From a virus: a stretch of DNA of 24,430 nucleotides. The translations under genes and the position numbers were made by a program. The notes beneath the pieces were generated by a model. It ran no database searches. It saw only the letters and a list, made by a program, of their open reading frames with translations, and had not been told where the DNA came from. Positions 22,868-23,628 of this stretch are shown here, in pieces; position 1 is the stretch's first letter, and each line of letters starts with the position of its first letter. Location of the stretch: the IMG/VR virus record IMGVR_UViG_3300030107_001142, positions 1 through 24,430 of that record. The stretch is one strand, 5' to 3'.

Positions 22868-22918
22868 CTTGATTTTATCAAGTTAGGTCTCAACTAGATT
22901 TAAGTAGTTTTTTTTGCT
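22868..22918 (+). terminator. Possible weak terminator with T-run
   Basis: A perfect CTTGA-TTTTA-TCAAG hairpin at about 22868-22882 is followed by AACTA...TAGTT (about 22892-22909), which runs into an unbroken stretch of T ending near 22915. The second stem is short and AT-only, so termination would rely on the T-run. Confidence 0.4.
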
Positions 22919-22919
22919 T

Positions 22920-23062
22920 CTCTCAGGCTCAGCCTCATAGAGCCCACAGTCAATAAGAGGGACACCGCAACAGTCAGGCGATAGGGTCTAGCGAGTCGGT
23001 TTAGAGTGGTACTCAGTCCACCGATTAAAAAAGTTTGTTTGTATCTAGTAATTATACTAGAA
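22920..23062 (+). ncRNA. Second structured non-coding stretch upstream of the 68-residue ORF
   Basis: GC-richer than its surroundings, with helices GGCTC/GAGCC (about 22927-22944), GTGG/CCAC (about 23007-23022) nested in AGTCGG/CCGATT, and a six-pair hairpin TCTAGT-AATTAT-ACTAGA (23044-23061) just before the next gene's ribosome-binding site. It shares with the hammerhead region the run GAGC(C/T)CACAG, a GAGGG stretch, and TGTATCTAG(T/C)AATTA at the 3' end. It lacks CUGANGA and the GAA box, so it is not itself a hammerhead. It may be a diverged relative or an unrelated leader. Confidence 0.45.
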
Positions 23063-23099: not shown

Positions 23100-23306
23100 A
23101 TGAGTAATCAAGAAACTATTTTTAGTGAAAAAGACGGCGATACTTTTTATAGTATCACTAAAGGCGTCTTTTATATCAAAGACTTTATGGCGGATATGTT
23201 GGCTTATAGAGTTATGAAACACACTACTTATAGTAAACCTATAGTTGAATATACTTTTGTTAAAACTCAAGCTGAAGCAATTATGAAAGACTTAATGAAA
23301 GCATAA
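23100..23306 (+). CDS. Small hypothetical protein (68 residues)
   Basis: No family recognised. The sequence MSNQETIFSEKDGDTFYSIT continues with two probable helices and is acidic at the start, basic and Met-rich at the end (EAIMKDLMKA). No membrane span or signal. The start is secure: TAATAGGAG lies 10 bases upstream. It stands between two structured non-coding stretches, with the hammerhead ribozyme downstream, so its message would end in the 5' cleavage product. Small soluble proteins in such places of T7-like genomes are often early host-takeover factors, which is only a guess here. Confidence 0.72.
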   Translation: MSNQETIFSEKDGDTFYSITKGVFYIKDFMADMLAYRVMKHTTYSKPIVEYTFVKTQAEAIMKDLMKA

Positions 23307-23318
23307 TAATAAATTTAC

Positions 23319-23349
23319 GGGCTTAGGCGGTCTAGTATCGCCTGAGCTC
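23319..23349 (+). other. Eleven-pair hairpin upstream of the ribozyme, loop complementary to its stem I
   Basis: GGGCTTAGGCG (23319-23329) pairs fully with CGCCTGAGCTC (23339-23349), with two G-U pairs. The nine-base loop GTCTAGTAT contains GTCTAG, an exact complement of CTAGAC at 23354-23359, which spans the ribozyme's stem I strand and first core base. No T-run follows, so it does not look like a terminator. Confidence 0.7.
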
Positions 23350-23352
23350 ACA

Positions 23353-23510
23353 GCTAGACTGACGAGGGTTTTATACCCGAAACAGACAGACTTAAGAGCT
23401 CTATTAATTTTTGAAGCGGAAATGTCGGAAATCTTTAGCAAAGCTATAAACTCGTGCACGGGATATATATAGGTTATTTAGTAGGGCTCTTAAGATTGTC
23501 TGTATCTAGC
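23353..23510 (+). ncRNA. Type I hammerhead self-cleaving ribozyme with long stem III insert
   Basis: All invariant parts are present in order. Stem I 5' strand GCTAGA (23353-23358). Core CTGACGA (23359-23365; position 7 is C, where any base is allowed). Stem II GGGT-TTTAT-ACCC (23366-23378). Core GAA (23379-23381). Stem III from A23382, whose 24 positions (23382-23405) pair with 23480-23503 with a single A-A mismatch and only G-U wobbles otherwise. Cleavage triplet GTA (23502-23504). Stem I 3' strand TCTAGC (23505-23510), fully complementary. Cleavage is predicted between A23504 and T23505. Opening at stem I makes it type I. A 74-nt insert caps stem III. Activity and stem I-loop II tertiary contacts cannot be judged by eye. 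Confidence 0.85.
23406..23479 (+). other. Structured insert capping hammerhead stem III
   Basis: Contains CTTT-AGC-AAAG (about 23433-23443) and a hairpin CTCG-TGCA-CGGG (23451-23462) followed by ATATA and enclosed by CTATA/TATAG (23444-23448 with 23468-23472). The hairpin plus ATATATA run repeats the element at 22372-22389 after the endolysin gene, with the inner base pair changed from C-G to G-C. Confidence 0.55.
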
Positions 23511-23540
23511 AATTAATTAAATTAATAAAATAGGTTGCTA

Positions 23541-23628
23541 CTTAATAGCGTAAGCATTAAGACGGAATAATTAAAAAATCCGTGTTCAAAGTTTTAAGCG
23601 TTCTATTTATAATTAAGCGACTTAAAAC
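23541..23628 (+). promoter_or_regulatory. Structured 5' leader of the 129-residue gene
   Basis: Three successive hairpins: CTTAAT-GC with GTAA loop and one bulged A (23541-23561), ACGGA/TCCGT (23562-23583), and GTTTTAAGCG paired with CGACTTAAAAC with a bulged A (23591-23628). They are followed by a CAAACAAAC tract and the ribosome-binding site. Cleavage by the upstream ribozyme would make this leader begin at 23505. Confidence 0.5.

Follow-up and report, generated by a model that had tools for sequence, protein, structure and literature searches.

Does the folded segment at positions 23353-23510, between two small genes of a marine phage, encode a self-cleaving RNA, and what would such an RNA do to the messages on either side of it? 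The stretch of DNA analysed here (the window; 24,430 nucleotides, positions 1 to 24,430 of the IMG/VR record IMGVR_UViG_3300030107_001142) is a fragment of an HTVC019P-type pelagiphage, with its late end running into the stretch that forms the early region in annotated relatives. Its large terminase shares about 83% identity with those of Pelagibacter phages Eistla and HTVC031P, within a range of 79-84% for HTVC019P, HTVC031P, Eistla and others. Genes for capsid, tail, internal virion, terminase and lysozyme-like proteins on the + strand are followed by small genes, two of which flank the segment, in agreement with a first-pass annotation that had placed it in the small-gene region of a T7-like marine phage. 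The hosts of this phage group are the abundant marine SAR11 bacteria.

23100-23306, + strand: gene 1, 68 aa
23666-24055, + strand: gene 2, 129 aa, downstream of the predicted cut

Gene 1 has a single weak PHROG match, to a PHROG of unknown function; a family search with gene 2 returned no match, and a search for functions of the two products found nothing. Homologues of gene 2 are present in 11 viral loci. No DNA relatives of the ribozyme region were found among sequenced phages.

Anatomy and fold of the ribozyme

On the + strand, positions 23353-23510 make up a complete type I hammerhead. It lies between two small early genes, is genuine and conserved, belongs to a ribozyme class already known, and has the following parts.

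23353-23358, + strand: stem I 5' strand, GCTAGA, paired with 23505-23510 in the minimum free energy (MFE) fold; invariant in 11 lineages
23359-23365, + strand: catalytic core strand CUGACGA (C3 to A9), from the sequence; CTGAYGA in all relatives; G8 is G23364
23366-23378, + strand: stem II hairpin GGGU-UUUAU-ACCC, from the MFE fold; two-sided changes at two pairs in relatives
23379-23381, + strand: core GAA (G12, A13, A14), from the sequence; invariant in relatives
23382-23406, + strand: stem III 5' strand, from the MFE fold; its first 10 bases can also pair (10/10) with a half-site, S1, described below
23407-23478, + strand: inner insert of stem III, 72 nt, in this phage only and not in ten relatives
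23479-23503, + strand: stem III 3' strand, from the MFE fold; its last base is U16.1
23504, + strand: A17 (H17) of the GUA triplet, with predicted cleavage at 23504/23505; A or C only in 11 lineages
23505-23510, + strand: stem I 3' strand, TCTAGC, from sequence, pairing and MFE fold; the gene 2 message is predicted to begin here with a 5'-OH

The assignment to type I follows from CUGANGA and GAA with A15.1-U16.1, three helices round the core and an open stem I, and the cleavage triplet GTA (23502-23504) is of the NUH form. All invariant elements were found in the correct order, as were the fully paired six-base stem I and the GTA triplet that the first-pass annotation had reported. Its stem III of 24 positions with one mismatch was right as to the mismatch, an A-A, but the stem has 25 positions (24 pairs), and its inner part, given there as a 74-nt insert, measures 72 nt. 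Loop II (23370-23374, UUUAU) has U at its third base, where 27 of 27 other aligned phage type I hammerheads have A; the same U is present in L081, L094 and L111. As to the contact between loop II and the stem I region, the bases on either side of stem I agree with the consensus of phage hammerheads, but loop II lacks the invariant A, and this loop-loop contact may be weaker in the window ribozyme.

The MFE fold of 23351-23512 consists of exactly the three hammerhead stems (-51.4 kcal/mol, z -5.0), and none of 200 shuffles folded as well. The motif CTGANGA-N13-GAAA occurs once in the window against 0.09 expected. A full descriptor, with at least 6, 4 and 8 pairs in stems I, II and III, had no match in 400 Markov-shuffled windows searched on both strands, which bears out the earlier estimate that the joint chance of all elements is tiny; a looser descriptor (4/3/4 pairs) gave 0.015 matches per shuffled window.

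Covariance models and conservation in related lineages

A covariance model (R1) whose 27 compact type I hammerheads come from other viral contigs, none of them in the window clade, matched the window with 37.1 bits (E 2.4e-7), reliably over the 5' part. Because R1 does not span the long stem III, it puts the last ten bases of the match at the nearer, poorly paired 23432-23441 and not at the true 3' strand; its support therefore concerns the ribozyme strand and its flanks, and the 3' strand rests on the fold and the relatives. R1 also matched the ten relatives (E 0.0047 or better) and the hammerheads of HTVC019P, HTVC031P and Eistla. The search with the Rfam type I model that had been proposed as a check (RF00163, Hammerhead_1; cut-off 34 bits) gave no match in the window or ten related records, a result that says little, since the model was over its cut-off nowhere in these controls. 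The RAGATH-1 hammerhead (RF03152; cut-off 56.3 bits) has the same type I core, and its model too has a hairpin upstream of stem I, but the window was unmatched by it at E up to 10. At the Rfam cut-offs none of the window, relatives and isolates tested was called; the closest scores were 19.7 bits for RAGATH-1 in L102 (cut-off 56.3) and 42.5 bits for Hammerhead_3 in the type III copy of L139 (cut-off 48.5). Weak Rfam matches in the region (rne5, GAIT and others; E up to 10) lay far below cut-off and were set aside. Given these misses at cut-offs, the hammerhead class is probably under-counted in phage genomes.

Relatives were gathered by a terminase scan, which gave 80 viral contigs, and more were added by DNA patterns. 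The ribozyme was found in ten lineages besides the window, between homologues of genes 1 and 2 or their neighbours, CTGAYGA, GAA and stem I are retained in all ten, and the site reads GTC or GTA, so that H17 is C or A only in the 11 lineages. Loss of the core bases or pairings in homologous phages, raised earlier as a point against the ribozyme, was looked for in these ten lineages, and both were kept. On a hand-anchored alignment, from which pairing and covariation were counted, stem II occurs as GGGT/ACCC, GGCT/AGCC, GCCT/AGGC and GGGT/ACCT, with two pairs changed on both sides, and the fourth pair of stem III varies between A-U, G-C and U-A. Stem I is invariant within the window clade and thus uninformative there on covariation; in other phages it varies freely with full pairing, a figure of 100% that is partly by construction, as the descriptor demands pairing. 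Anatomy, fold and conservation in relatives thus support the type I identity first proposed for this segment. A further hairpin is conserved beside it.

23319-23349, + strand: hairpin of 11 pairs between the stop codon of gene 1 and stem I, close to the latter; 120 of 120 alignment cells are paired, and both sides have changed at one pair

In three relatives the same ribozyme carries two extra hairpins between CUGAUGA and stem II (L094 5967-6052, L111 5249-5333 and L106 13613-13702). These are CCTGAAAAGG plus AACGC..GCGTT in L094 and L111, and CCG..CGG plus AGTATATA..TATATACT in L106. According to a 2023 paper, known hammerhead alignments have at most one or two bases between CUGAnGA and the adjacent stems (PMC10085705); the double-hairpin form would, if active, be a new structural variant.

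Predicted processing of the early transcript

The segment is probably a working hammerhead of the pelagiphage early region, whose self-cleavage would separate the RNAs of genes 1 and 2 and give gene 2 a 5'-OH end with a refolding hairpin. According to this model, the early polycistronic RNA would cut itself after A23504, between the two genes; the gene 1 RNA would carry the hairpins of the ribozyme itself at its 3' end, with a terminal 2',3'-cyclic phosphate, and the gene 2 RNA would start with a 5'-OH at 23505. Once freed from stem I, the first bases of the gene 2 RNA would refold into a hairpin lying at its new 5' end or close to it.

23507-23540, + strand: predicted post-cleavage hairpin, TAGCAA with TTGCTA, from the fold

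This hairpin would disfavour reversal of the cut and protect the gene 2 message from nucleases that depend on the 5' end, and the ribozyme would act as the separator of two early messages, a task that falls to RNase III sites in phage T7. At pelagiphage loci the freed strand can often refold with a downstream copy of stem I (TGTTAC-ATA-GTAACA, TATTGC-ATAC-GCAATA, TCTAGC-ATTAA-GCTAG). Among type I sites, 17 of 26 in pelagiphages have a refolding 5' hairpin of at least 5 pairs, versus 24 of 110 elsewhere, although related loci are not fully independent. We infer that refolding of this kind renders cleavage irreversible and protects the newly created 5'-OH end. Hammerhead processing of phage transcripts was proposed in 2011, and tandem copies have been shown to cleave both in vitro and in E. 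coli (PMC3088659).

The gene 2 homologue of sister clades is preceded by a related hairpin and a sigma-70-like promoter, read by eye, in the place of the ribozyme, and from their sequences ribozyme and promoter look like alternative routes to a gene 2 message. The promoter reads TTGACT-17-TAAACT (L194-L198) or TTGCAT-17-TATACT in L194-L200, where it lies partly within the hairpin. Counting against the proposed role, a promoter-like site in the window (23585-23613) could yield gene 2 RNA without cleavage.

A coreless half-site upstream of gene 1

The window contains a second, incomplete hammerhead element on the other side of gene 1.

23033-23061, + strand: S1, a hammerhead substrate half-site that lacks a core (GTTTGTTTGT, A, TCTAGT-loop-ACTAGA) and lies upstream of gene 1; arms invariant in 11 lineages

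The pattern GTTTGTTTGT-M-TCTAGT-loop-ACTAGA is kept in 11 of 11 lineages, with M being A or C only; the lineages were partly collected by the exact S1 pattern, and those found terminase-first show S1 equally. S1 occurs once in the window, and the idea that it is a phage promoter present in repeated copies was rejected. At the corresponding position, sister phages carry a full type III hammerhead, of which the window clade keeps the 5' half without the core strand. In terms of Hammerhead_3 (RF00008) in sister pelagiphages, S1 is the 5' half (the 3' strand of stem III, cleavage site and stem I hairpin), but CUGANGA, stem II and GAA are missing, and the window ribozyme is of type I.

The conservation of S1 in all 11 lineages, with H17 as A or C only, would be consistent with one core making two cuts, at 23504/23505 (S2) and, through a long-range type III arrangement across gene 1, at S1 (23043/23044), whereby the gene 1 message would be excised exactly. 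In G001 and G002, two near-complete genomes, the type I core was the only one found; that this single core has arms that pair with S1 suggests one core serving two sites. Pairing between S1 and the stem III arm of the ribozyme reaches 10/10 in the window and 9/10 in most relatives, and 9 is reached by 2 of 128 other phage ribozymes. After the S2 cut, six of eight lineages have the S1 pairing within 0-4.5 kcal/mol of their best fold; in uncut RNA, however, it costs 7-14 kcal/mol relative to the best fold, and in the window it is unfavourable even after the cut (10.8). Moreover, S1's own hairpin competes, GTTTGTTTGT pairs also with ACAAACAAAC in the leader of gene 2, the arms may match because they and the lost type III core have a common origin, and stem I is without covariation. 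On balance, we regard a second cut by the same core as unlikely. The discontinuous type III hammerheads of mammalian Clec2 genes (PMC6155905) offer a model for S1 with a distant core across a long stem I insert, but the likeness is an analogy only. If two sites were served, one ribozyme would excise the gene 1 message from an S1 lying 300-480 nt upstream, and a refolding hairpin would cap each released downstream end.

The intergenic stretch that ends at S1 (about 22900-23032 in the window, with homologous stretches at about 3960-4050 in L139 and in other relatives) is structured and partly conserved; its fold has z -2.4 and it has no Rfam match. This stretch is possibly a phage noncoding RNA with its 3' end set by a hammerhead.

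S1 could also be the relic of a lost type III copy, and the ribozyme a neutral or mobile passenger that cleaves but has little role. Sister clades without the ribozyme at this place, the free growth of stem III and leader in this phage, and copies beside unrelated genes in many phages would be consistent with such a passenger, but the same two flanking genes in 11 lineages, and compensatory changes within fast-changing intergenic DNA, make it improbable. We favour separation of the gene 1 and gene 2 messages as the role of the ribozyme.

The long stem III and the leader of gene 2

The stem III stretch is 123 nt long in this phage versus 15-21 nt in the ten relatives, and the leader from the cut to gene 2 has about 100 further bases compared with theirs. 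The short stem III of the relatives indicates, at the level of sequence comparison, that the long insert is a lineage-specific and not an essential part; it is best seen as tolerated growth of a stem left unconstrained in hammerheads. The first-pass annotation had considered the context unusual, which is correct for the long insert, confined to this phage, but not for the presence of a hammerhead, as these are widespread across this phage group and many other viral contigs. A 19-nt exact probe from the insert had no match among viral contigs. Tandem duplication as the origin of the insert found no support, its alignment score being no better than that of shuffles (154/500), and a copy of the S2 site inside it (ATC then TTTAGC, 23431-23439) was discarded, as 49-91 of 500 shuffles equalled it and it has one stem III pair only. 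The extra leader includes the promoter-like TTCAAA-17-TATAAT (10/12) at 23585-23613, a stretch that compact relatives lack.

Allosteric control, with the 72-nt inner part of stem III sensing a ligand or protein and switching cleavage, would be in line with the folding of this part with the extended stem, but is very improbable, given relatives without it and an exact probe that found no relative of it. A terminator or other hairpin resembling a ribozyme by chance, as a hairpin-rich region and the silence of the Rfam models might suggest, is hardly tenable against 0 of 400 shuffles, conservation in relatives and the R1 matches, and no terminator-like site was found here.

Hammerheads in cultured and uncultured phages

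Hammerheads are well known in phages and prophages, where their role is open (PMC3088659, PMC6155905). The type I hammerheads of bacteria, prophages and phages (PMC3088659) have the same core, block order, open stem I and location between phage genes, often with several per genome. The window ribozyme differs from them in its 24-pair stem III with a 72-nt inner part, its conserved upstream hairpin and refolding 5' hairpin, and in being accompanied by the coreless half-site upstream of gene 1. It is of interest less for its stem III insert than for the half-site and for a setting that is shared across the group, conserved and accessible to testing. A literature search on pelagiphage ribozymes yielded one incidental mention and nothing relevant; most subscription journals and bioRxiv preprints were outside this search, so that novelty is unproven.

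Unannotated hammerheads were found in the early region of the cultured pelagiphages HTVC019P, HTVC022P, HTVC031P, HTVC109P, Eistla and HTVC021P. They are of type I and/or type III in records L189, L190, L191, L192, L204 and L206 (HTVC031P, HTVC019P, Eistla, HTVC021P, HTVC022P and HTVC109P, respectively). With the same kind of ribozyme in related cultured phages, the use of hammerheads by phages is now testable, for example via transcript ends. The predicted cut in HTVC022P falls after base 2353 of its record, and RNA-seq of HTVC022P infection has been published (PRJNA1253180; PMC12753301).

Six-member arrays of type I hammerheads were observed in L080 (421-2239) and L011 (6219-11143). Each hammerhead of the L080 array is directly 5' of a ribosome-binding site, and the first precedes a gene whose product starts MRSYPIW, like that of gene 2 of the window.
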